Of a stretch of 64,000 nucleotides of DNA, positions 46,183 through 62,938 are shown one piece after another. Position numbers and translations under genes: made by a program. The stretch spans positions 62,001-126,000 of the forward strand of contig JANYGI010000061.1 in NCBI GenBank assembly GCA_025362495.1, read 5' to 3'. Origin of the DNA: Byssovorax sp. (GTDB lineage: Bacteria > Myxococcota_A > Polyangia > Polyangiales > Polyangiaceae). The number at the start of each line of letters is the position of its first letter. Within the stretch, counting starts at the first letter, position 1. Below the pieces are notes generated by a model. It was not told the DNA's origin. It did not search any database and saw only the letters and a list, made by a program, of their open reading frames with translations.

Positions 46183-46302
46183 CGTACCTCCGAAGCCATG
46201 ATTGGCTCTGCGGGGATCGGCGGCGACGGGGCGAGCTTGAGCGCGTTGCGACGCGCTGGCCGATCCGGCGCGCGCCCCCGTGCGACGTCACCGCGGCGGT
46301 AG

Positions 46303-46311
46303 TGCTAGGCT
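46303..46311 (+). promoter_or_regulatory. Extended -10 element for the HEAT/TPR gene
   Basis: TG-C-TAGGCT, 17 nt before ATG 46329; predicts a ~10-nt leader. Confidence 0.45.
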
Positions 46312-49216: not shown

Positions 49217-52200
49217 TCAAAGGCAGCAGCGGAATCCCACGTCGCAGTCCTGGTATTTGATCGGGTACGACGCGAGCTCGTCGCAGCGGAGATCCCCGCC
49301 GGGCGCGGTGCCGCTCTCGCAGTGCGACCCGCCGCGGACGTGGCAGACCGTGGGAGTCGCCGCGTCGCAGGAGTTCTCCCACTCGGCCACGTTGCCGCTC
49401 ATGGCGAAGAGGCCAATCACGCCGCCCTGGCACGAGGCGTAGCTCGCGTTCGCGGAGCCGATGGCGCCGATACAGGCGTTGGTGGGGGTGGGGTTCGCCG
49501 CCGTCGGACACACGCCGGCGACGGCGCTGCTGCTGAGCTGATCGACGCCGCGACAGCTCCCGTGGTTGTAAACGTCGCTGTACGGATAGTCGTTGTTCCC
49601 GCTGAAGGTGCAGGCGTTGAACCACTCGCTCTTCGTCGAATCATCGTACTCGACGTCGGCCGGATCGATGTCGAGCCCGCCGCTGACCTTGCCGCAAAGG
49701 TGCTTGTGGGAGTAGGCGCAGTACGCCCGGGCATCGCACCAGTCGACATGAGCGACGGGGACCTGGAGCTGCGACGGCTGGGGCGGCCACACGCCGGGCA
49801 CGTACCCGGGCGGATTGGACTTGTAGGCGCAAACGGCGGGCTGATTGGCGGGGACCTGGCCCGACGTGAGGAAGACGTCGTACTCGCTGTTCGTCACCTC
49901 GGAGGCGTCGATGCAGTACGTGCCGCCGCCGACCTTGGGGATGACCTTCATCGTCGACGGGCAAGCGCACTTGTTCGCGGTGCAGATCTGGCCCTCACAG
50001 TTGAGCGCGACAGCACACTTCTGGCCCGTCGTGCACGGGGCGCAGCCGCCGCCGCCACAGTCGATGTCGCTCTCGCCCCCGTTCTGGATCCCGTCGCTGC
50101 AGGTCGCGGGCAGGCACGTCTTGGCGGTGGGATCGCAGTGGATCGAGGCGCAATCCGTGTCGATCTTGCACTTCAGGTTGTTGGCGCACGGGGCGCAGGT
50201 GCCGCCGCCGCAGTCGACGTCAGTCTCGGGCGTGCCCGGGTTCTGCACCGCGTCGGTGCAGGTCGGCGCGCAGGTGAGGGCGACGCACGACCCTCCCTTG
50301 CAGTCACTGCCAATCTTGCACGCCAGGGTGGGTCCGCAGCCGGGGCACGCGCCACCACCACAGTCGATGTCGGTCTCGGTGCCATTCTTGACGACGTCGA
50401 CGCAGGTCGCGGCCTTGCACAGGCCGCCCGTGCAAACGCCGGTGCTGCAGTCGGCTCCCGCGGCGCAGCCCTTCCCGACCGCGCAGGCCTGGCAGGAGCC
50501 GCCACAGTCGGTGTCGGTCTCGGTGCCATTCTTGACGAAATCGGAGCACGTCGCGGCCTTGCAGAGGTTGCCCGCGCAAACCCCGGTCGTGCAGTCCGCG
50601 CTCACGCTGCAGCCCTTGCCCGGCACGCAGGCGCTGCAGAGCGGACCACCACAGTCGATGTCGGTCTCGGCGGCGTTCTTGGCGAGATCGCTGCATGTGG
50701 AAGCCTGGCAGACGCCACCCGTGCACACGTGGCTCGCGCAGTCGGCCGCCACCGCGCAGCCCTTGCCCGTCGCGCACGCGCTGCAGGTGCCGCCGCAGTC
50801 GACGTCGGTCTCGGCGCCGTTCTGAACGACGTCAAAGCACGTCGCGGCCTTGCACTGGCCGCCCTGGCAGGAGCCGGCAAAGCAGTCGGCATTCACGAGA
50901 CAGAACTTGTTGATCGCGCAGACCGGGCACGTCCCGCCGCCACAATCGATGTCGGTCTCGGTGCCGTTCTTGTTCATATCCATGCACGTGGGCGCCGCAC
51001 AGACGCCGCCCGTGCAGACGTGGCTCGCGCAGTCGGTGCCGAGGGCGCAGACCTTGGCCGTGGCGCAGGCGGGGCAGGTGCCACCGCCACAGTCGATGTC
51101 GGTCTCGGCCGCGTTCTTGACGGTGTCAGTGCACGTCGCGCTCTTGCACACGCCGGCCGTGCAGACTCCGGTGCTGCAATCGGCGCCCGCGCCGCAGATC
51201 TTCCCGGTCGCGCACTTCTGGCAGGTCGGGCCGCCGCAATCGACGTCCGTCTCGGAGCCATTCTTGACGTTGTCGGTGCAGAGCGGAGCCTTGCAGAGGC
51301 CGCCGGTGCAGATGCCGTCGATGCAGTCGAGAGCGACGCTGCAGATCTTGCCCGTCGCGCAGCCCCCGCAGGTCCCTCCGCCGCAATCGACGTCGGTCTC
51401 GCTGCCGTTCTTGACGAGATCGCTGCACGTGGGCGGCTTGCAGATGCCTCCCGAGCACACGTGCGTCGCGCAGTCACCGCCGACGAGGCAGGCGAGGCCC
51501 GTCGCGCACTTCGCGCAGGTCGGGCCGCCACAGTCGATGTCGGTCTCGTTCTTGTTCTTCACCCCGTCGCTGCAGGTCGCGAGGCAGACGCTGCCCGAGC
51601 ACTGACCGCTGACGCAGTCGGTGCCCATCGAGCACTTCTCGCCGGCCGGGCACGAGGGGCACGCGGCGCCGCCGCAGTCGACGTCGGTCTCGACGCCGTT
51701 CTTGATGACATCGTTGCACGTGGGCGCCGCGCAGACGTTGCCTGCGCAGACGCCGTTCGCGCAGTCCGCGCCGCCGATACAGGCCTTCCCCGTGGCGCAG
51801 CCGAGGCAGCTCGGGCCGCCGCAGTCGACGTCGGTCTCGGTGCCGTTCAGCTTCGCGTCGACGCAGGTGGGCGCGACGCATTTACCGGCCTTGCACACGG
51901 CCCCCGGGCAATCGATGCTGGAGAGGCACTCGATGCAGATGCCCGTCCCATCGCAGAGCTTGCCATTGCCGGCGTTGGTGCAGGCCGTGCCCTTCATGGT
52001 CGGTGTGTTGACGACCGCGCCGGCCATGCAGCCATCGGTGGTGCAAAGGTTCTTGTCGTCGAACGGATCATCGGTGGCGTCCACCGACTTGGTCGCGCCG
52101 GCCCCGTCGCAAACGATCGTCTTGCAGTCGCCGGCGGTCTGCGTTTTCGCCGCCGTGCCGCTGGCCACGAAATCGAGGCCGCACACGCCGCCGCTGCAGG

Positions 52201-52501
52201 TGGCTGTCTGGCACTCCGTCGTGGTCCCGGGGCAGTCTGCGGCCGTCGTGCAGCCGCCCATCCCGCCGCCGCTGCCGCTCGCCGAGCTCGAGCTCGAGCT
52301 CGCGCTCGCGCTGCTGCTCGCCGTCGTCCCGCCGCCGGTCCCCGTGGTCGTCGCGTCGCCACCGCTGCTGCTGCTCACCGTCGATGTCTTTGGAGGCGGT
52401 GGGGCGCTGGAGCTCGTCCCCTCTCCGCCGCACGACGCCGCGCCGACCGTGGTGAGCGCAAACAAGACGAGCAGCGAAGTCAAGGTGTTACGCGATGTCA
52501 T
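49217..52501 (-). CDS. Lipoprotein with 13 Cys repeats and a C-terminal FGE/SUMF1-like domain
   Basis: 1094 residues from ATG 52501. The signal peptide ends Gly-Ala-Ala-Ser-Cys (about residue 24), followed by a Ser/Thr/Gly linker to about 80. A Cys-rich N-module (about 80-200) is shared with the proteins at 59591 and 63232. Thirteen units of ~46 residues then carry Lys-Asn-Gly-x-Glu-Thr-Asp-(Val/Ile)-Asp-Cys-Gly-Gly and six further Cys each. The last ~240 residues resemble the formylglycine-generating-enzyme fold (Glu-Val-Thr-Asn-Ser-Glu-Tyr, Asn-Val-Ala-Glu-Trp-Glu-Asn, Arg-Gly-Gly-Ser, Gly-Phe-Arg-Cys) with many extra Cys. ATG 52540 lies upstream of the inferred transcript start and is rejected. 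A large surface-exposed, disulfide-rich adhesin-like protein is likely. Confidence 0.82.
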   Translation of the reverse strand: MTSRNTLTSLLVLFALTTVGAASCGGEGTSSSAPPPPKTSTVSSSSGGDATTTGTGGGTTASSSASASSSSSSASGSGGGMGGCTTAADCPGTTTECQTATCSGGVCGLDFVASGTAAKTQTAGDCKTIVCDGAGATKSVDATDDPFDDKNLCTTDGCMAGAVVNTPTMKGTACTNAGNGKLCDGTGICIECLSSIDCPGAVCKAGKCVAPTCVDAKLNGTETDVDCGGPSCLGCATGKACIGGADCANGVCAGNVCAAPTCNDVIKNGVETDVDCGGAACPSCPAGEKCSMGTDCVSGQCSGSVCLATCSDGVKNKNETDIDCGGPTCAKCATGLACLVGGDCATHVCSGGICKPPTCSDLVKNGSETDVDCGGGTCGGCATGKICSVALDCIDGICTGGLCKAPLCTDNVKNGSETDVDCGGPTCQKCATGKICGAGADCSTGVCTAGVCKSATCTDTVKNAAETDIDCGGGTCPACATAKVCALGTDCASHVCTGGVCAAPTCMDMNKNGTETDIDCGGGTCPVCAINKFCLVNADCFAGSCQGGQCKAATCFDVVQNGAETDVDCGGTCSACATGKGCAVAADCASHVCTGGVCQASTCSDLAKNAAETDIDCGGPLCSACVPGKGCSVSADCTTGVCAGNLCKAATCSDFVKNGTETDTDCGGSCQACAVGKGCAAGADCSTGVCTGGLCKAATCVDVVKNGTETDIDCGGGACPGCGPTLACKIGSDCKGGSCVALTCAPTCTDAVQNPGTPETDVDCGGGTCAPCANNLKCKIDTDCASIHCDPTAKTCLPATCSDGIQNGGESDIDCGGGGCAPCTTGQKCAVALNCEGQICTANKCACPSTMKVIPKVGGGTYCIDASEVTNSEYDVFLTSGQVPANQPAVCAYKSNPPGYVPGVWPPQPSQLQVPVAHVDWCDARAYCAYSHKHLCGKVSGGLDIDPADVEYDDSTKSEWFNACTFSGNNDYPYSDVYNHGSCRGVDQLSSSAVAGVCPTAANPTPTNACIGAIGSANASYASCQGGVIGLFAMSGNVAEWENSCDAATPTVCHVRGGSHCESGTAPGGDLRCDELASYPIKYQDCDVGFRCCL

Positions 52502-52510
52502 GGGGAGAAC

Positions 52511-52540
52511 ATCGTGCACATTTGCGGAGTCGCGTGTCAA
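52511..52540 (-). promoter_or_regulatory. Promoter of the 13-repeat lipoprotein gene
   Basis: On the minus strand TTGACA (52535-52540), 18-bp spacer, CACGAT (52511-52516), then 9 nt to ATG 52501. Geometry and both hexamers are identical to those of the paralogue at 54530-54559. Most of the remaining gap 52502-52927 is somewhat AT-richer and holds no gene I can support. Confidence 0.6.
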
Positions 52541-52894
52541 TCTCCGTGATTCGCACGCAGGGTCGCGCGCCCGCGCGGTTGCGTTGATTCCGCGAGGGAC
52601 AGGGGCGTCCCGCGATGGACTTCAGGGCGTCTTTTCGATGGCTGGCGTGGCGCGAACGCGCCCTTCGTGGAGGCTGGTGCCATCTGGTACCCGCCACGCG
52701 CTGCGTGGTTCGTGCTCCTGCACGCGGCAGAAAATCCTGCCCGCCCGTGCCCAAGCGGCATTCGACTCGAGATGGCTATTCCGGTACGCGGAGTGGCCGG
52801 CACTGAACTTTGGCCTTTGCCGAGCGGCAAATTTGGTCAATGCGTCAAGTGCGGTTCGGGGTATGGGGGGCCCCGGCGAGCTTTGCTCGACGGA

Positions 52895-52918
52895 GGGAAA
52901 GGGCGCGAGCCCTTTCCC
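52895..52918 (-). terminator. Terminator of the 4-repeat lipoprotein gene
   Basis: Perfect 10-bp stem (52895-52904 with 52909-52918) closed by a GCGA (GNRA) tetraloop, 10 nt after the stop at 52928. Confidence 0.6.
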
Positions 52919-52927
52919 GGGACTGAA

Positions 52928-54520
52928 TCAAAAGCAGCAGCGGAATCCGACGTCGCAGTCCTGGTACTTGTACGGCTTCGAGATGAGCTCATCGCAGCGG
53001 AGGGCGCCGCCGGACGCGCTCCCCGACTCGCAGTGCGAGCCGCCGCGGACATGGCAGGCGGTCGGGTTGGCGGGATCGTCGCACGAGTTCTCCCACTCGG
53101 CGAGGTTGCCGCTCATGCCGTAGAGGCCAATCACACCGCCCTGACAGGTGGAGTCGGTGATGGCGTCGACGACGCCCGCGCAGGAGTTGACGGGGTTCGG
53201 ATTGGCGGCCGTGGGGCAGACGCCGGCCGGGGCGTTCGTGGTGGCATGATCGACGCCGCGACAGGACGTGTGATTGTAGATGTCGCCGTAAGGAAAGTCG
53301 TTGTTGCCCTGGGCGCTGCAGGCGTTGAACCACTCGCTCTTGGTGGTGTCGAGGTAGTTCACGTTGCCGGGATCGTTGTTGGCGCCGCCGCCGATCTTCC
53401 CGCAAAGGTGCTTCTTCGAGTACGCGCAGTAGGCGTAGGCATCGCACCAGTCGACGTAGGACACAGGGAGGTTGATCTGCGCGGGCGCGGGCGGCCACAT
53501 GCCCGGCACGTAGCCCGGCAGGCTGGCCTTGTAAGCGCAGGCCGGGGGCAGGTTCTGGATGACCTGGCCCGCCGTCAGAAACACGTTGTAATCGCTGTTC
53601 GTCACCTCGGCGGCGTCGATGCAATACGTGCCTCCACCGGCCTTGGGGACGATGGCCATGCCCGGGGGACAGGCGCACTTGTTCATCGTGCAGATCTGGC
53701 TGAGGCAGTTGGCCGCGACGGCGCACGTCTGGCCGGTCGAGCACTGCGGGCAGACCCCGCCGCCACAGTCGATGTCGGTCTCGGCCCCGTTCTGGATGCC
53801 ATCGTTGCACGTCGCGGGGACGCAGGTCTTCTTGACGGGATCGCAGATGCTGGAGGCGCAGTCCGCGTCGATCTTGCAAACGAGGTTGTTGGCGCACGGG
53901 GCGCACGCGCCGCCGCAGTCGACGTCGGTCTCGCTGGTGCCCGGGTTCTTCACGCCGTCGGAGCACGAGGGCGAGCAGGTATGAGTCATCACGCTGCAGG
54001 CAGAGCCTTTGCAGTCGTTCCCCGTGTTGCAGGTCTCGCCGGGGCCGCAGCCGTTGCAGGGGCCGCCGCAGTCGAGATCGCTCTCGGTGCCGTTGGCGAT
54101 GCCGTCGGTGCACGAGGGCGCGACGCAGAGCTTGCTGACCGGGTCGCAGTGCTTGGATTTACAGTCCTTGTCGACTTTGCATTTGCCACTGTCGTTGCAG
54201 GGATCGCAGACGGGGCCGCCGCAGTCTTTGTCGGTCTCCTTGCCGTCCATCATCATGTCGGTGCAGGTGACGGAGCCGCCCGTCCCGCTGCCCCCGCCCG
54301 CGCCGCCCGCGCCGCCCGCGCCGCCCGAGCCGCCCATGCCGGTGGTGGTGCTCATCTCGCCGCTGCCCGAGGTGACGGCCCCGCTGCCGCTGCTCGTCGT
54401 CGACGTCTTCGGCGGCGGTGGAGCGCTCGAGCTCGATCCCGATCCGCCGCACGAAGCCGCGGCGACGATCGATAGCGTGAAGAGCGCGAGGAGCGAGGAG
54501 ACGGTGGTGCGCGAAGTCAT
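52928..54520 (-). CDS. Lipoprotein with 4 Cys repeats and a C-terminal FGE/SUMF1-like domain
   Basis: 530 residues, close paralogue of 49217-52501. The signal peptide ends Ala-Ala-Ala-Ser-Cys, the linker is rich in Gly/Ala/Ser, and four Cys units carry Glu-(Thr/Ser)-Asp-x-Asp-Cys-Gly-Gly. The C-terminal ~240-residue FGE-like domain aligns along its whole length with the larger protein (Gly-Gly-Gly-Thr-Tyr-Cys-Ile-Asp, Val-Asp-Trp-Cys-Asp, Ser-Glu-Trp-Phe-Asn-Ala-Cys). It lacks the Cys-rich N-module of its paralogue. The two genes are tandem, same strand, each with its own promoter and terminator, so a gene duplication with change in repeat number is clear. Confidence 0.82.
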   Translation of the reverse strand: MTSRTTVSSLLALFTLSIVAAASCGGSGSSSSAPPPPKTSTTSSGSGAVTSGSGEMSTTTGMGGSGGAGGAGGAGGGSGTGGSVTCTDMMMDGKETDKDCGGPVCDPCNDSGKCKVDKDCKSKHCDPVSKLCVAPSCTDGIANGTESDLDCGGPCNGCGPGETCNTGNDCKGSACSVMTHTCSPSCSDGVKNPGTSETDVDCGGACAPCANNLVCKIDADCASSICDPVKKTCVPATCNDGIQNGAETDIDCGGGVCPQCSTGQTCAVAANCLSQICTMNKCACPPGMAIVPKAGGGTYCIDAAEVTNSDYNVFLTAGQVIQNLPPACAYKASLPGYVPGMWPPAPAQINLPVSYVDWCDAYAYCAYSKKHLCGKIGGGANNDPGNVNYLDTTKSEWFNACSAQGNNDFPYGDIYNHTSCRGVDHATTNAPAGVCPTAANPNPVNSCAGVVDAITDSTCQGGVIGLYGMSGNLAEWENSCDDPANPTACHVRGGSHCESGSASGGALRCDELISKPYKYQDCDVGFRCCF

Positions 54521-54529
54521 GCGACTTCA

Positions 54530-54559
54530 ATCGTGCGCGGGATACGAGCCGCGTGTCAA
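54530..54559 (-). promoter_or_regulatory. Promoter of the 4-repeat lipoprotein gene
   Basis: On the minus strand TTGACA (54554-54559), 18-bp spacer, CACGAT (54530-54535), 9 nt to ATG 54520. The TTGACACGCG start of the element is shared with the paralogue's promoter. It overlaps the 3' end of the MFS gene (stop at 54556). Confidence 0.6.
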
Positions 54560-55881
54560 TGTGCGCGATCCGCGGCGACGACGGCGCGCGGCGACGCTGC
54601 GATCGGCCACAGCAGCCAGGCGATGCAGCCCGGGAAGACCCACGACGTGAGCGTGAGGAACGCGGCCGTGTAGCTCCCCGTGCGCTGGATTGACCAGCCA
54701 ATCAGGGGGTTTGCGATGATGTACGCCAGTGACTGAGCCGCCGCCGTGAGGCCGCCCGCCGCCGAGACCTGGCGCGAGGGGACGCGCGCCAGCATCTCGG
54801 TGGTCGCCAGCGCGAAGAGGCCGCCGCCGCCCGCGAGGCTGACGCTGGCGCAGACGAGGACCGCATACGGGCCTCCCGCGAACGGGGCGACGAAGCTCAC
54901 CGCCATCAGCGCCGTCGCCATGGCGACGAGGCGACGCGGGACCGAGGCCTCGCCGCCGTGGCGCGCGCGGCTCGCCGCGTGGCCGAAGAGGATGGCGCCG
55001 GCGTCGAAGACCAGCGGCGGAAACCAGAGATACCGCGCGAGATCGCCCTGCAAGAGGTGCTGATCGTGGACGAGGTACTTGGCGGTCCAGTTGAAGTAAA
55101 AGCTGAGAATGGGCGAGGTCGCGAGCACCACGACGATGGCCCGGAGCACGGCCGGGTGCCCGAGGAGCGCGAGCGGCCCGAGCGCCGGGCGAGGCGCCGC
55201 GGGATCCGCGCTGTCGTGCGCGCTCACCGCGGGCGTTCCGGCCTCGTCGTCGTCGTGGCGATCGAGGGCCGCGCGGGCAGCGGGCGCGCGCGTGACGTAG
55301 AGCCAGATCGGGACCCACGAGAGACCGACGAACGCGGTGCCCGCGAAGGCGAAGCGCCAGCCGAAACGAGCCGCGAGCGACGTCGCCAGGAGCGGCGCGA
55401 ACATCGCCCCGATCGAGCTGCCGCTGAAGAGCACGCCGAGCGCGCGCGGCCGATCCTTCGCGGGGAGGGCGCGGTGGATCGTCTGCGCTGCCCCGGGAAA
55501 TGAAGGCGATTCAGCGAGGCCGAGGGCGATGCGGAGCGCGAAGAGCACGCCGAAGCCGGGCACGAGCGTGTGCAGCGCGGCGACGCCGGACCACACGAGC
55601 ACCGCGACGAGGAGGCCGCGGCGCGCGCCGACGCGATCGATGAGCCGCCCGGCGATCGGGGCGCCGACGAGGTAGGCGATCGAGAACGCGGAGACGAGCC
55701 AGCCATAGGCCACGTCGTCGATGCCGAGCTTCGCCTGCACGGTCGGCGCGATGACGGAGAGCGTCTGCCGATCGATGTAGCTGACCGCCATCGTGAAGGT
55801 GGCGACGAGCGTGAGAGCCCACGCGTGGCGGCGGGTGAGGCCGCCGCTCGGGGCGGCGAAGGGGTTCGACGACGGGATCAT
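54556..55881 (-). CDS. MFS transporter (anion:cation symporter/ACS-like)
   Basis: 441 residues with twelve predicted helices and a central charged loop (about 205-235). The N-terminal half has Ser-Tyr-Ile-Asp-Arg-Gln-Thr-Leu-Ser after helix 1 and Arg-Leu-Ile-Asp-Arg-Val-Gly-Ala-Arg-Arg between helices 2 and 3, the MFS signature. Arg-(Ile)-Ala-Leu-Gly-Leu-Ala-Glu-Ser-Pro in helix 4 is typical of the ACS family, which takes up hexuronates, glucarate or similar organic anions. The substrate is not certain; uptake of uronates would match a PL14-like lyase elsewhere in the window. TATCCT lies 11 nt before ATG 55881. Confidence 0.85.
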   Translation of the reverse strand: MIPSSNPFAAPSGGLTRRHAWALTLVATFTMAVSYIDRQTLSVIAPTVQAKLGIDDVAYGWLVSAFSIAYLVGAPIAGRLIDRVGARRGLLVAVLVWSGVAALHTLVPGFGVLFALRIALGLAESPSFPGAAQTIHRALPAKDRPRALGVLFSGSSIGAMFAPLLATSLAARFGWRFAFAGTAFVGLSWVPIWLYVTRAPAARAALDRHDDDEAGTPAVSAHDSADPAAPRPALGPLALLGHPAVLRAIVVVLATSPILSFYFNWTAKYLVHDQHLLQGDLARYLWFPPLVFDAGAILFGHAASRARHGGEASVPRRLVAMATALMAVSFVAPFAGGPYAVLVCASVSLAGGGGLFALATTEMLARVPSRQVSAAGGLTAAAQSLAYIIANPLIGWSIQRTGSYTAAFLTLTSWVFPGCIAWLLWPIAASPRAVVAADRAH

Positions 55882-56017
55882 GCGCTGCGCCGAGGATAGG
55901 CGGGCGCGCCCGCCTTGGAAATCGATCCCTCCGGCGCCGTCCGCCCGGCGGCCTTGATCCGGGGCGCCGTGTTGACGCCCGATCCCGCGCGGACACCACT
56001 ACTGACGCAAACTTGCA

Positions 56018-56136
56018 GCGGTAGTGCTGAACGGCGCGTAGCGCCGTGGGGTCCGGGGCTCGTCCCCCGGGGAGACAAAACTAGCGCTACCGCCCGCCGC
56101 AAAGCGGCGGCGCGCAGCGCGCAAACGAAGTTTGCG
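56018..56136. other. Hairpin-rich structured intergenic element
   Basis: Three perfect 7-bp hairpins with 3-nt loops lie at 56031-56047, 56094-56110 and 56120-56136. There is a CCGGGG/CCCCGG hairpin at about 56053-56070. An outer 11-bp arm pair (56018-56028 with 56083-56093, one G-U) encloses the first and second hairpins as a three-way junction. Density of perfect pairs far exceeds the surrounding sequence. Structured RNA, mobile REP-like element or terminator cluster are all possible. It fills much of the 281-bp gap between the MFS gene and 56163. Confidence 0.5.
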
Positions 56137-56144
56137 GCAATAGT

Positions 56145-56152
56145 GATAGACT
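56145..56152 (+). promoter_or_regulatory. Extended -10-like element downstream of the hairpin element
   Basis: TG at 56144-56145, A, then TAGACT at 56147-56152, 10 nt before ATG 56163; same form as the other short-leader promoters here. Confidence 0.35.
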
Positions 56153-56162
56153 CGCGCGCCTC

Positions 56163-56312
56163 ATGTCACCCTACCTCGCCTCCGACGCCCGCGACTTCGC
56201 CAACCCGATCGAGCCCTCCGGCGCCGGCGGGCGGAAGATCGCGCTGGCCATCGCCGGTGCGGTGGGAGCGGTCGAGTCGCCTGGTCGCAGGAGCATCCGC
56301 GCGGCGGGCTGA
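56163..56312 (+). CDS. Short ORF, probably the 5' remnant of a lost gene
   Basis: 49 residues starting Met-Ser-Pro-Tyr-Leu-Ala-Ser-Asp. The first ~37 codons have the strong third-position GC bias of real genes and include the start of a hydrophobic helix (Lys-Ile-Ala-Leu-Ala-Ile-Ala-Gly-Ala-Val). The bias then fades and the frame ends at TGA 56312. It has a good -10 just upstream. It looks like the N-terminal fragment of a membrane protein. The following gap 56313-56528 holds no gene I can support. Confidence 0.35.
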   Translation: MSPYLASDARDFANPIEPSGAGGRKIALAIAGAVGAVESPGRRSIRAAG

Positions 56313-56528
56313 GAGAGTGGCCGTTCATCGGCCGCGCTCGACCCACGCGGAGAAATCGGTTTGCTCCGAGGAGGCCAGTCACCTCGGCCCGGCCCGGCGG
56401 CGCGCGAGATCGGCGTGGAGCGGAATTGTGCACGGTGCTTTTTCGCTTGATCCGCGCCGGGCCGGCGTCGCCTAATGCGCCGCGATACCCGGAGTGAACA
56501 GCCTCGTGCGGAGTGAAGGAGCAACGAA

Positions 56529-57998
56529 ATGCGACGAACAGTGACGATGACGATGGTGGTGAGCGTGGTACTCGCGGCGTCGGCGGGCGTGGCGGAGGCA
56601 GCGACGCTCGAGGTCGGCCCCGGAAAGACCTACGCGACCCCGTGCGACGCCATCGCGGCGGCGATGCCCAATGACGTCGTCGAGGTCGCGGCGGGCACGT
56701 ACACCGACACCTGCTCCATCGGCGTCAAAGGCCTCACCGTGCGCGGCGTCGGCGGGCGGCCGAAGATCGATCTCTCGGCGACCGAGCACCCGTCCGGCTA
56801 CAAAGGCATCTACGTCATCGACGCCGACGACGTCACCCTCGACAACCTCGAGCTGACGGGCGCCCACATCAGCGACGACAACGGGGCCAACGGGGCCGGG
56901 ATCCGCATCCAGGCGGCGGGGCTCACCGTGCATGGCTGTTACATCCACGACAACCAGAATGGCATCCTCGGCGGGATCTCCCCGAACGGCGGGAAGATCA
57001 CCATCGAATACACCGAGTTTGCGCACAACGGGCTCGGCAACGGGTGCAACGTCGGCGGCTGCACTCACAACCTCTACATCAACCACGTCGACGAGCTGCT
57101 GTTCCAGTACAACTGGTCGCACGACATCCCGAACGACTTCCCCGACAAGGGGCACCTGCTCAAGTCGCGCGCCGCGAAGAACACCATCCTCTACAACCGG
57201 ATCACCGGCGAGATGGGGCACGACAGCTACGCCCTCAATTTCCCCAACGGCGGGCTGACGATCCTGGTCGGCAACCTGATCGAGAAGGGGCCGAACGGCG
57301 ACAACAAGATCCTGCTCAGCTACGCTGAAGAGGGCGCGAGCAACGCCGACAAGCGGGTCTTCCTCGCCAACAACACCTTCGTCAACGACGCCGCCGACGG
57401 GACGTTCGTCAAGCTGGCTGACGGCGATCTCGTGGCGCACAATAACCTCTTCGTCGGTCCGGGCACGGTGTCGTCCACGGGCGCGCTGCCGGCCGACAAC
57501 CTCTCCGGCGTCGATCCGAAGTTCGTCAATCAGGCGATGTTCGACTACCACCTCCAGGCGGGCTCGCCGGCCATCGACAAGGGCGTGGATCCCGGCAAGG
57601 CCGACGCCTTCTCGCTCACGCCGGTCGAGGAGTACGTTCAGCCGCTGAAGGGCGTGATGCGCAAGAGCGATGGGAAGCTCGATATCGGAGCGCTGGAGTT
57701 CGGTACCGACGTGACCGGGATGGGCGGCGGCGGCGCGACCGGGAGCAGCACCACGTCGGCCGGCGTCGGCGGCAGCGGGGCGACGGGCGCGGGCGGCGCG
57801 ACCGCGGCGGGGACCGGGAGCGGATCGGCCGCGACGGGCTCCGGCGGCGCGGGCGGCGGCGGCGCGACGAGCGGCGGTGAGAGCGGCGGTTGCGGCTGCG
57901 AGGTCGCAGGGCACGAGTCGGGCAGCGGCGCTCTCGGCCTCGTCGGCCTCGGCCTCGCCATGGCCGCTCTCGGCCGCAAGCGTCGTCAGGCACGCTGA
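56529..57998 (+). CDS. Secreted parallel beta-helix protein with MYXO-CTERM-like tail
   Basis: 489 residues. A signal peptide (about 1-24, ending Ala-Glu-Ala) precedes a right-handed beta-helix domain (about 30-390) with repeated short strands, Asn ladders and Gly-turns as in pectate-lyase-like proteins and CBM-linked polysaccharidases. A Gly/Ala/Ser/Thr linker (about 395-455) leads to Gly-Cys-Gly-Cys, a hydrophobic helix (about 465-482) and Arg-Lys-Arg-Arg at the end. That Cys-helix-Arg tail matches the MYXO-CTERM sorting signal, which in myxobacteria directs proteins to the cell surface after processing. The catalytic residues are not identified. A hairpin at 58022-58040 follows. Confidence 0.82.
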   Translation: MRRTVTMTMVVSVVLAASAGVAEAATLEVGPGKTYATPCDAIAAAMPNDVVEVAAGTYTDTCSIGVKGLTVRGVGGRPKIDLSATEHPSGYKGIYVIDADDVTLDNLELTGAHISDDNGANGAGIRIQAAGLTVHGCYIHDNQNGILGGISPNGGKITIEYTEFAHNGLGNGCNVGGCTHNLYINHVDELLFQYNWSHDIPNDFPDKGHLLKSRAAKNTILYNRITGEMGHDSYALNFPNGGLTILVGNLIEKGPNGDNKILLSYAEEGASNADKRVFLANNTFVNDAADGTFVKLADGDLVAHNNLFVGPGTVSSTGALPADNLSGVDPKFVNQAMFDYHLQAGSPAIDKGVDPGKADAFSLTPVEEYVQPLKGVMRKSDGKLDIGALEFGTDVTGMGGGGATGSSTTSAGVGGSGATGAGGATAAGTGSGSAATGSGGAGGGGATSGGESGGCGCEVAGHESGSGALGLVGLGLAMAALGRKRRQAR

Positions 57999-58021
57999 GA
58001 GGGAGTGGGGAGGTGAGGGAG

Positions 58022-58040
58022 CGGCCAATGAACGGCCGCT
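58022..58040 (+). terminator. Hairpin terminator of the beta-helix gene
   Basis: A perfect stem of about 7-8 bp (AGCGGCC with GGCCGCT) and a 7-nt loop, followed by CTCTTTC. A similar but diverged inverted copy occurs near 56313-56340, on the other side of the gene. Confidence 0.45.
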
Positions 58041-58045
58041 CTCTT

Positions 58046-59335
58046 TCAGTCTGCACGGGGCCGCGCGGTCTCGGCGACAGTGATCAGCGCGTGATAGTGG
58101 GCCTCGACCGGGCGCAGATCGACGGCGTCCATGAACGAGGTGAAGGCGAAGAAGGGCAGCAGTGTCTCCCACGCGGAGAGCCAGCGGGGCAGGTATCTCG
58201 GCCGCCTGAGGATGCCTCTGGCGCGGAGCTCGGCGAGGACGGCGACGTCGTCGAGGCAGATGCGGCCCGAGACGAGCAGCTCGACCTCGTCGCGAAATCC
58301 TCCGCGGATCACGGCCGAAAGGAAGGCGTGGACCTCGAGCAGGCCAGCGAGATAACAGGCATCCTTCGTGAACGGGGCGCCCCCCGTCACGAGGCCGCCG
58401 CGGCAGACCCGCTGCGCGTCGAAGTAAGCGTCGCGCGGCTCGGCGCCGCGCTCGACGAGGAAGCGGTAGAGATCGAGGAAGCTCGCGCCCTGTTCGGCCA
58501 TGTCGACCAGCTTGACCCGGGTGGCGAGGCGCGTGAGGCGGCCAATCGAGAGAGCGCGGTTGTAGAGCTCGGAGAACACCGCGAGGCCCTCCTGCGTGCG
58601 CGTGGTGCGCGGGCCGCCCGATCGCAGGAACGAGGCGCTCTGCTGGAGCGCGCCGTTCTGCGCCGTGAGCGCGTGAGTCTCGATTTCGTGGTGCCACAGG
58701 CCCTCGACTTCCCACGGCGCGAAGGTCGCGTCGGGGCGCACGCGGACGCGGTTCATCCCGGCGACGCATTTGGCCGTGGCGCGCTCGTCGAGGACGATCT
58801 CCAGCTCGAGCCGCGGGCGGCGCTTCGCGGCGCGGATCTGCAGGCGCGTCACGAGCTCGGGCGCGGTGATCACCGCGGCGCGCGAGTCCCGGGCCTCGTC
58901 CCAGCCGTGGACGCGGAGGCGCTCGATCAGGTGGTCGGCCAGATCGATGTTGCGCGCCGACGCGCCGAAGAAGGCCGTGCGCGCGCCGCCGTAGAGCGTG
59001 CGCGAGCGCTCGTAGAAGTCGCGCGTGCCGACGGCGAGGAGCAGCTCGTTGCCGTCGATGAGCGAACGAACCGTGGCGCGAAGCCACCCGGCGATGGAGT
59101 CGTCGCCCTCGATCGAGCCCTCGATGGCGGCGAGCTCCGCGACCTGGGCGCCGATGCCCTCGCGATCGATGGCGTGGTCGATGGTGGGCAGGCGCGTCGC
59201 GCCGGAGGCGAAGAAGGCCTCCTCGACCTCGCGAGGCCAGGCGATCTCTTCGAGGAGCTTGCCCTTGTTCCGGCGCTCGCCGAGGACGCGACCAACGCGC
59301 GCGATCTGCTCCGTGACGCGGCGCTCATTCTCCAT
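58046..59335 (-). CDS. DUF1704/QEGLA-motif metallopeptidase-like protein
   Basis: 429 residues from ATG 59335. The metal-binding motif His-His-Glu-Ile-Glu-Thr-His (about residue 213) and, later, Thr-Gln-Glu-Gly-Leu-Ala define the DUF1704 family ('flavohemoglobin expression-modulating QEGLA motif' proteins; tyrosine/glutamate carboxypeptidase MATCAP-type in eukaryotes). It is expected to be a zinc carboxypeptidase; bacterial substrates are unknown. An in-frame ATG at 59494 adds 53 residues but TATGTT 6 nt before 59335 supports the shorter leaderless start. Cytoplasmic. Confidence 0.82.
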   Translation of the reverse strand: MENERRVTEQIARVGRVLGERRNKGKLLEEIAWPREVEEAFFASGATRLPTIDHAIDREGIGAQVAELAAIEGSIEGDDSIAGWLRATVRSLIDGNELLLAVGTRDFYERSRTLYGGARTAFFGASARNIDLADHLIERLRVHGWDEARDSRAAVITAPELVTRLQIRAAKRRPRLELEIVLDERATAKCVAGMNRVRVRPDATFAPWEVEGLWHHEIETHALTAQNGALQQSASFLRSGGPRTTRTQEGLAVFSELYNRALSIGRLTRLATRVKLVDMAEQGASFLDLYRFLVERGAEPRDAYFDAQRVCRGGLVTGGAPFTKDACYLAGLLEVHAFLSAVIRGGFRDEVELLVSGRICLDDVAVLAELRARGILRRPRYLPRWLSAWETLLPFFAFTSFMDAVDLRPVEAHYHALITVAETARPRAD

Positions 59336-59341
59336 GCCCGG

Positions 59342-59347
59342 AACATA
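59342..59347 (-). promoter_or_regulatory. -10 element of the DUF1704 gene
   Basis: On the minus strand TATGTT, 6 nt before ATG 59335; leaderless transcript predicted. Confidence 0.4.
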
Positions 59348-59590
59348 GCCGCGCGGCGCGCACCGGTCGAAATGGTCGCGGAGCCGCTGGCGCAGGCCGA
59401 CTCTGGCGCAGGAAACGAGCGGCAGACGCAGGGAATGGCCCGCCGTGCGGCTTGACAGCGGGCGGCCGTTTGGGTTGTTTGGGACGGATCCCATTTCCCC
59501 GCACTTCGCGTCAGGGTGGCACCCGACCCGGAGTGTACCTGTTCATTTCGAACTGCCCCGGCGCTCTGCATGCCGGGGAACGAGGTCGTC

Positions 59591-62500
59591 GTGTCGCAAG
59601 ACCGCCTGTTCACTCTGGCGATGCTGAAACAGCTCGCCGCACCGTTCAGCATTCTCGCCCTGATCGGAGCCGCGACGGTGTCGTCCGCGGGCTGCGGCAG
59701 CACGCCGGATCCCACGGGCAGCGGCGGCGCAGGGGGCACTGCCGCCACCTCGACCACCACCGCGGCGTCCTCGACGACGACGGGCGGTGGCTGCGCGGTC
59801 CCCAGCGATTGCCCCGGGGTCGACACCGACTGCTCGAAGCGGAGCTGCTCGGCGGGCGTCTGTGGTGTCACGTTCACCGCGGCCGGCGCGGCGACCACCG
59901 ATCAGACCGCGGGCGACTGCCAGCAGAGCGTCTGCGATGGCAAGGGCGCGACGACCACGCAGAACGACGACACCGACGTCCTCGACGACGGCAACGACTG
60001 CACCGACGACGTGTGCACCGCGGGCGCGCCGGAGAACAAGCCGAAGGCCTCGGGCGCGACGTGCGCGTCGAACGGCGGCAAGGTCTGCGACGGCGCGAGC
60101 GCGTGCGTGGAGTGCGTCGACGCGGCGGGCTGCGCGAGCGGCGTGTGCGCGAAGAACGCCTGCATCGCGGCCTCGTGCACCGACGAGGTCAAGAACAACA
60201 CCGAGACCGACGTCGACTGCGGCGGCCCGGACTGTAACCCCTGCGCGGCCGGGAAGGCCTGCGCCGCGGGCACGGACTGCGTCGACACCATCTGCACGGC
60301 CGGCATCTGCGCCGCGGCGACGTGCAGCGACGCCGCGAAGAACGGCGCCGAGACCGACGTCGACTGCGGCGGTGGCATTTGCAAGGGCTGCGGCCCGACG
60401 CTCGGGTGCAAGATCGACGGCGACTGCGTCGGCGGCTCGTGCTCCGGCACGATCTGCCTCCCGACCTGCACCGACAAGGTGAAGAACAGCGGCGAGACCG
60501 ACGTCGACTGCGGCGGCCCGACCTGCACCGTGTGCGTGGACGGGAAGGCCTGCGCGGCGGCCGCGGATTGCAAGAGCAAGGTCTGCACGGCGGGCGTGTG
60601 CGTCGCCCCGAGCTGCACCGACGGCGTGCAGAACGGGACCGAGTCGGACAAGGACTGCGGCGGCCTCTGCGGCCCCTGTAACCCGACGCAGATGTGCACC
60701 AAGGGCGCCGACTGCGCGACCGGCGTGTGCACCGGCAACGTGTGCCAGGGCGCGGTCTGCAACGACAACACCAAGAACGGCAGCGAGACCGACGTCGACT
60801 GCGGCGGGATGTGCGCGACGAAGTGCGGCACGAGCAAGGCGTGCCTCGTGGCCGGCGACTGCGTGAGCCAGGTCTGCGCCGGCGGCGTCTGCCAGGCGGC
60901 GATCTGCGGCGACGGCGTGAAGAACGGCACCGAGGCCTGCGACGACGGTAACCCCGTGAGCGGCGATGGCTGCTCGTCGGGGTGCGCGGTCGAGGCGGGC
61001 TTCACCTGCGCCGGCTCCACCCCGACGGTCTGCTCCGCGATCTGCGGCGACGGCGTCAAGGTCGCCGGCGAGCAGTGCGACGACGGCAACGCGACGACGG
61101 GCGACGGCTGCTCGGCGGTCTGCGTGGTCGAGCAAGGCTTCACCTGCGGCGGCGCGCCCAGCGTCTGCACGACGACGTGCGGTGACGGCTTCAAGGCCGG
61201 CGCCGAGGCCTGCGACGACGGCAACGGCATCCCCAGCGACGGCTGCACGGCGTGCGTCGTCAACGCCGGCTTCACCTGCACTGGCTCGGCGCCGAGCGTC
61301 TGCACGGCGATCTGCGGCGACGGCATCAAGGCCGGCGCCGAGGGCTGCGACGACGGCAACACCGTCAACGGCGACGGCTGCTCGGCGACCTGCACCGTGC
61401 AGGCCGGCTACGCCTGCAACGGCGCGACGCCGAGCGTCTGCACGACGATCTGCGGCGACGGCGTCATCGCCGGCAGCGAGGCCTGCGACGACGGCAACAT
61501 CGCCAACGGCGACTGCTGCTCGTCGAGCTGTCACGTCGAGGCGGGCTGCGAGGTCGAGGCGAACAGCACCATCCCGACCACCAACGTGCTCTCGGCCGTG
61601 GCGATCAACAACAAGGTCAACGGGTTCATCAACCCGAGCGGCGACAAGGACTACTTCTCGTTCGCCGTCCCCGCGAACGCGACGGCCGTGCTCACCGCGC
61701 AGACCATCGACAACTTCCTCGGCATCACCTGCGCGTCGAACAACATCGACACTGTCGTGACGCTGTTCGACTCGTCGACGCCGGCGGTCTCGCTCGTCAG
61801 CAACGACGACTTCGGCGGCAACCACTGCTCGAAGATCGTCTCGAGCACGCTCAACCCCGGCACGTACTTCATCGAGGTCCGCGCCTACACGTTCGCGAGC
61901 CCCGCGACGTTCGCGTACACGCTCCAGACGAGCATCGCGCTGAAGATCTGCGGCAACGGCATCATCGAGGCGCCCGAGCAGTGCGACGGCGGCCCCACGT
62001 GCGCCGCGGACTGCACGCTGATCCCCGTCTGCGGTGACGGCACCATCAGCGGCACCGAGATCTGCGACGACGGCAACAGCGTCAACGGCGACGGCTGCAG
62101 CAGCGCCTGCGCGCTCGAGGGCGGCCAGAACGAGGTCGAGCCCAACGGCACCCTCGCGCTCGCCGATGCCCGCGCGCTCGACGCGACGCCGACGGTGTTC
62201 GCCGGCAGCAACACCCTGCTCGCCTCGATCGGCAAGGTCGGCGACAAGGATGTCTTCAAGGTCACCGTCGCCACCGCCGGCGTCGTGCGCTTCGAGACGT
62301 TCGAGACCGCGGCGCTCGACTGCCTCACGATCGCGACGAGGCTGACGCTGCTCGGCAGCGGCGGGACGACGCTCTACACGGACACGACGACGGGCATCAA
62401 GAGCTGCTCGGCGATCGACGCCTACCTCGCCGCGGGCACCTACTACATCCAGGCCGAGCAGGCCGCGGGCACGCTGACGATCCCGAAGTACCTGCTCCAG

Positions 62501-62938
62501 GTGAAGTTCGAGGGCAACGGCGGCAGCGAGATCGAGCCGAACGACTCGCCCGCGACGGCGACCGCGGTGGCGGGCGTGGACACCTTCGTCCTCGCCGCGC
62601 ACCCGCTCGCGACCGACGATGATTTCTACGCGATCACCGTGCCGGCCGGCATGTCGATCCGCGCCGAGGTCGTCGAGGGCGATCTGACCACGACCTGCGA
62701 GTCGGACGGCATCGACAGCAAGCTGACGCTGTACGACGCCGCGATGACGTCGCTGGCGACGGACGACGACAGCGGCCGCGGGTTCTGCTCGCTGATCGAC
62801 GGCACCGGCGCGACGCCCGCGTACACCGGCGCGCACAACCTGGCGGCCGGGACGTACTACCTGAAGGTGACGCCGTCGGACCTCGTCTCGCCCCCCGCGG
62901 ACGTCTTCAATTACCGCCTCGTCGTCACGGTGCGCTGA
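59591..62938 (+). CDS. Lipoprotein with ETDVDCGG repeats, DUF4215 repeats and PPC domains
   Basis: 1115 residues from GTG 59591, preceded by CGAGGTCGTC. The signal peptide ends Ser-Ser-Ala-Gly-Cys (about residue 34), then a Thr/Ser/Gly linker. A Cys-rich N-module (about 65-185) matches 49217-52501 and 63232-end. Five Cys units with Glu-(Thr/Ser)-Asp-x-Asp-Cys-Gly-Gly follow, then five DUF4215 units (Cys-Gly-Asp-Gly...Cys-Asp-Asp-Gly-Asn) and two more of these after the first PPC domain. Three PPC-like beta domains lie at about 650-760, 850-960 and 975-1115. ATG 59621 is an alternative, but the paralogue at 63232 shares the GTG and its surroundings. Surface adhesion or binding is the likely role. 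Confidence 0.82.

Follow-up and report, generated by a model that had tools for sequence, protein, structure and literature searches.

The 64,000-nucleotide stretch of Byssovorax sp. DNA analysed here (the window) carries, between a gene for an MFS transporter and one for a beta-helix protein, an element of 149 bp at positions 55997 to 56145, counted without its flanking 4-mers and delimited by alignment with a second copy in the same genome and with relatives. Read on the minus strand it has the order A-linker-B, A and B being two palindromic modules, and its interior is a chain of hairpins with mostly 3-nt loops. No gene lies inside it: the ORFs crossing the element (186 aa and 74 aa) are without a Pfam match, as is the 49-aa ORF to its right. 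Proteins most similar to the product of the adjacent MFS gene (51-61% identity) come from Polyangium species and an uncultured delta-proteobacterium, which points to a probable myxobacterial host near Polyangium. Three long ORFs in 49217-62938 (49217-52540 and 52928-54520 on the minus strand, 59516-62938 on the plus strand) encode cysteine-rich repeats of the ETDVDCGG type.

Architecture of the element

The element is bounded by terminal inverted repeats that read CACTACTGNCGCAAAYTT, the left one forming the B end (55997-56014, plus strand, CACTACTGACGCAAACTT) and the right one the A end (56128-56145, CACTATTGCCGCAAACTT read on the minus strand), with 16 of 18 bases equal between them. As judged by alignment, module B (55997-56029, minus strand) consists of its end and an inner arm (56018-56029), and module A (56081-56145, minus strand), also delimited by a model match, of an inner arm (56081-56093), three hairpins and the right end. 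Both inner arms resemble the element ends. A junction, GGGGAGACAAAACTAG (56069-56084, plus strand), resembles by sequence and alignment the GGGGACAAAACTAG of copies in the related genome G023. Aligned elements start with a flanking 4-mer, CACTACTGCC, and the three small hairpins plus inner arm of module A, and continue through a junction such as TTTTGTC, linker hairpins, and the module B palindrome ending GGCAGTAGTG to the second flanking 4-mer; the linker of the window copy is shorter than that in other genera.

Sequence and fold place two hairpins on the plus strand of the linker, one of 7 bp with loop GTA (56031-56047, ACGGCGC-GTA-GCGCCGT) and one that is GC-rich (56052-56073). Module A adds, on the same strand, a 7-bp hairpin with loop AAA (56094-56110, CCGCCGC-AAA-GCGGCGG), a hairpin with loop GCA inside 56110-56122 (GCGC-GCA-GCGC), and a 7-bp hairpin with loop GAA (56120-56136, CGCAAAC-GAA-GTTTGCG), the last of which extends into the right end (56128-56145), where it competes with pairing between the two ends. 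A closing helix of 11 bp, one of them a G.U pair, joins 56018-56028 to 56083-56093 in the minimum-energy folds. The earlier note had described a candidate structured RNA or mobile hairpin element at 56018-56163, and its three perfect 7-bp hairpins with 3-nt loops (GTA, AAA, GAA), additional GC hairpin and outer 11-bp helix are all present. Its interval takes in these hairpins but misses the left inverted end, the feature extending over 55997-56145; the letters TG-A-TAG that it saw ahead of an ORF are there as well, being the last bases of the element plus the right flanking 4-mer. Three of the four plus-strand 3-nt loops in 56031-56136 (GTA, GCA, GAA) fit C-GNA-G, and G023 copies have similar loops. 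C-GNA-G is a very stable DNA mini-hairpin, and we take the fit as no more than a hint.

The 64-kb window contains 10 perfect 7-bp hairpins with 3-nt loops, whereas 20 first-order Markov shuffles average 14.2, and a single hairpin of this kind is therefore uninformative. Three within 120 bp are on the other hand an outlier: in each of the shuffled sequences the densest span of that length held 1 or 2. Folding of 55993-56149 as RNA gave z -5.06 on the plus and z -5.56 on the minus strand, and as DNA z -5.23 on the plus strand, with 0 of 200 shuffles as low in each case; a fold of 56000-56180 reached z -2.63 only (3 of 200 shuffles as low). A chance cluster of hairpins would find some footing in the GC-rich genome, where single hairpins are common, but such density in none of the 20 shuffles and, above all, the existence of repeated copies with defined ends and duplications refute it, and we consider its probability negligible.

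Copies, relatives and target sites

The genome of origin (10,844,997 bases in 240 contigs) holds two element copies, the second (C232:120882-121035) being 94% identical to that of the window; a count of copies elsewhere in the genome, which the earlier note had proposed as a check alongside a covariation search, was thereby positive. A first search of relatives matched 3 of 59 genomes, namely the own genome (2 places), G023 (8 places) and G051, whose one 32-bp match was set aside as a stretch without element ends. The 14-mer GGCAGTAGTGCTAG was detected in 11 of 108 genomes of the family, with 60 occurrences in G023 versus 0 for the reversed control; the own genome lacks an exact match. Module A, searched as a covariance model, matched in 7 of 108 genomes of the family and, at the level of the order, in 8 of 183. 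Element relatives are present in two other genera of the family, and many copies were recovered only in G023 and in G003 and G087, the latter two belonging to genus g4 with about 20 copies each. G028, G019, G111 and G181 gave one weaker match each: the one in G019 carries element ends, that in G181 has an E value of 7.3e-4, and that in G028, a fold-back at a contig end, was not counted as a relative. A plasmid search returned no match to the element, and 40 stretches of viral contigs with one 15-mer match each were taken as chance.

The modules also occur separately, A alone at one locus (L066) and B alone at three (L067, L091, L117), and several loci hold truncated or internally deleted forms. 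In G023 one module B (L029, about 2405-2516, on contig C309) is interrupted at its CTAG by an element with ends like GAGTCTGTCGGAGAAAA. The window itself contains, at 46294-46308 on the minus strand, a solitary CTAGCACTACCGCCG, one mismatch from a G023 element end, possibly an end remnant or chance.

In G003 and G087 the flanking 4-mers are variable, mainly TTAG, CTAA, TTAA and CTAG, that is, of YTAR type, and the same 4-mer stands on both sides in 21 of 29 complete copies (11 from G003 and 18 from G087, out of the 35 loci L216-L250). Shuffling the right ends among copies gave a mean of 6.5, and 21 was reached in 0 of 100,000 permutations; six loci were left out of this count as incomplete (L224, L228, L229, L230, L231, L250), and lone B units in L219 and L221 were uncounted. 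These flanks are a 4-bp YTAR target-site duplication. YTAR targets are typical of IS701 in ISfinder. In G023, CTAG flanks both sides in 8 of 14 copies, counted among the 15 listed loci with both ends readable after exclusion of the interrupted L029; since this 4-mer is mostly CTAG, it could by itself be part of the element or of the target. No orthologous occupied sites were found between the fetched G003 and G087 loci, with no match over 230 bp.

The second copy in the own genome likewise has CTAG on both sides. It lies (L009:4884-5040) inside a CTAG at which two convergent ORFs (455 and 756 aa) both end, and each of them retains its stop codon. The window copy is flanked by ACAC on the left (55993-55996), which is neither YTAR nor equal to the ATAG on the right (56146-56149), and its flanking duplication has decayed or been lost; the insertion is probably old.

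Ends shared with an IS701-family insertion sequence

Allowing at most 2 mismatches, CACTACTGNCGCAAAYTT has 9 matches in the 10.8-Mb own genome, comprising 4 element ends, 4 ends of IS701-family insertion sequences (ISs) (C86 left, C99 left and right, C41 right) and 1 inner arm. The seven matches at 0 or 1 mismatch are the IS ends on C86, C99 and C41 plus the four element ends, and 2 mismatches add the C99 right end and the inner arm of the second element copy. At 3 mismatches the inner arm of the window copy appears with six others, presumably chance; as the total is then 16 versus 12 for a reversed control, only the ranking of the matches is informative. The C99 ORF is intact (407 aa) and matches NF033540 (IS701 family, E 4.9e-114) and PF13546 (DDE_5, E 3e-59). 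This IS starts CACTACTGTCGCAAATTTGG, a broken copy on C86 starts CACTACTGACGCAAATTTGG, and the own IS ends equal the B end of the window element at 17 and 18 of 20 bases. The own IS copies on C99 and C41 have CTAC on the left and GTAG on the right, without a direct repeat.

The association extends to relatives. An end survey covered 7 loci, and three IS701-family copies in the g14 genomes G112 and G114 (L306, L307, L310) carry CTAG-CACTACTCTGCC inverted at both ends, as does one in G111 (L308) with one changed base at the right; the own C99 IS (L175) scored 17/20, L312 has no ORF, and the end pair of L174 (16/20) was taken as spurious. CTAGCACTACTGCC lies just upstream of an IS701-type ORF in G095 and in G121, the G121 ORF matching NF033540 at E 3.9e-120, and a second CTAGCACTACTGCC end was not found at either ORF. 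PF13546 was detected in 4 of 8 tested genomes including the own one, G023 having a partial match only. Searches with this profile alone returned no match in G003 and G087; the mobiliser of their copies would accordingly be missing or lost, despite about 20 copies each.

Because the ends are shared with an IS701-family IS and the insertions duplicate their target, we assign the element to the MITEs of an IS701 subgroup. It is short and without a transposase gene (149 bp); its terminal inverted repeats agree at 16 of 18 bases; target-site duplications accompany copies in G003/G087 and G023 and the second own copy, though not the window copy; it is present twice in the own genome and many times in G023, G003 and G087; and it has ends in common with an autonomous element of the same genome. 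Thus, the hairpin cluster is very probably a non-autonomous transposon, with inverted ends that the DDE transposase of a resident IS701-family IS recognises. In the mechanism we propose, this transposase would bind the shared ends and move the element in trans, inserting it at YTAR (frequently CTAG) with duplication of those 4 bp. The inner arms might themselves be used as ends, and their resemblance to the ends would then account for A, B and A-linker-B each being found as separate insertions. With the IS701-family IS (NF033540 / PF13546) the element has terminal inverted repeats and CTAG-type flanks in common, in the own genome and in relatives, but it lacks the transposase gene, and its interior is, as far as seen and the ends excepted, unrelated.

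IS701 members are stated to make repeats of 4 or 5 bp, with 4-9 bp for two members (PMC8024623), 4 bp for ISTth8 (PMC6352166) and 5 bp for ISDge5 (PMC8533066). Bacterial MITEs with IS-like ends and stem-loops are on record (PMC11578231, PMC10969869), among them MITEPye1, which has IS1182-like ends (PMC11578231), and QMITE2 (PMC10969869). Like these, the present element is short and gene-less, shares inverted ends with a resident IS, has direct repeats and folds into stem-loops; unlike them it is partnered with IS701, consists of palindromic modules with 3-nt loops that are also dispersed separately, and is GC-rich, MITEs being typically AT-rich according to a review (PMC10969869). Neither an IS701-derived MITE nor the present family was found among the matches listed, mainly open-access papers, and the excerpts of papers naming IS701, MITE and transposase together were not seen to describe an IS701-derived MITE. 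The element forms a new family within the known MITE kind.

The earlier note had likened the cluster to REP elements. REP/BIME elements with RAYT are dispersed GC-rich hairpins, single or combined, and on such a reading a Y1 (RAYT/IS200-type) transposase would read the hairpins and move the repeat in single-stranded form. The present family indeed contains dispersed GC-rich hairpins, some single and some paired, and Y1_Tnp was matched in 3 of 6 tested genomes. However, a search with this profile (PF01797) found no match in the own genome, G003 or G112, and the three Y1_Tnp loci of the other genomes contain no element end or core motif. Moreover, Y1 elements are not known to make a target duplication, and neither the terminal inverted repeats nor the 4-bp duplications nor the ends shared with IS701 fit such a mechanism. 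We therefore regard the REP-like part of the suggestion as highly improbable. 'Mobile hairpin element', on the contrary, has been borne out: further copies exist, their ends are defined, and both target duplications and compensatory changes were observed.

Paired changes in the stems

The covariation search proposed in the earlier note found compensatory stem changes both in A modules and in the elements of genus g4. Across 18 A modules, those of the copies then available that could be read to both ends, 94.0% of cells pair, and two-sided changes occupy 9 cells of 4 pairs versus a shuffled mean of 1.2 cells; slid versions of the structure pair at 25-48%. Among 29 full g4 elements 98.4% of cells pair; two-sided changes fill 56 cells, spread over 9 of 56 pairs, versus shuffled means of 16.4 cells and 6.0 pairs, and further pair types number 21, below the shuffled mean of 23.4. 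In both sets the cells are inherited, so that events are fewer than cells, and the structure was derived from the very sequences counted. The stem of the GAA hairpin is among those changed two-sidedly in relatives.

Such pairing could also mark a structured RNA or an mRNA 3'-end or terminator element that is kept for its RNA fold, with dispersal as a consequence. Both strands fold very stably and compensatory changes are present, as this would predict, but paired changes would likewise arise if one inverted arm were corrected by the other. Paired change may thus reflect either selection on the hairpins or such correction, and the fold can equally be a DNA feature. Rfam gave no match at the gathering score in the window, a permissive scan of 55900-56250 returning 5 weak hits only, far below gathering. 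Nor are the copies enriched at gene stops. Insertion at stop codons as a rule, an idea prompted by the second own copy, was rejected: 32 of 55 element ends terminate a frame of 60 codons or more, versus 59% at random sites and 49% at other CTAG sites, and with a codon-bias filter 9 of 51 do, versus 12-13%. An RNA role of this kind is in our view improbable, and we retain the IS701-type MITE as the preferred reading.

A linker core in relatives

The linker contains in relatives a core of its own, GGGGTGAATYG-hairpin-CRAGAGGGGG, which was found in 10 of 108 family genomes from 4 genera, the reversed pattern in 0 of 108; the own genome has no match to it. Core loci (L273-L302) come from G003, G023, G085, G087 and the g14 genomes, six of the last having 7 to 50 matches each. 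At the g14 loci examined, the core sits inside elements with CTAG palindromes of other sequence or is nearly bare, and once it is in tandem. Conceivably these belong to a modular superfamily, in which the IS701-type palindromic ends carry a separately conserved core that has also spread in large-genome relatives, flanked there by quite other CTAG palindromes or nearly bare, its stems kept by paired changes, although we consider this rather unlikely at present. Were it true, the core would have a function of its own, be it a role at the protein or RNA level or a mobility signal, with the IS-type ends serving as interchangeable vehicles.

The family adds a MITE with an identified IS partner and explains hairpin clusters of this bacterial family that could pass for regulatory RNAs. 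Moreover, inner arms that copy the ends, together with a core common to elements with different ends, offer a natural example of the way in which miniature elements acquire and retain structure. Repeats with CTAGCACTACTGCC ends and other insides were also seen in G026 (L126, L130), G082 (L127, L131) and G121 (L113, L124, L128), several of them at contig ends.
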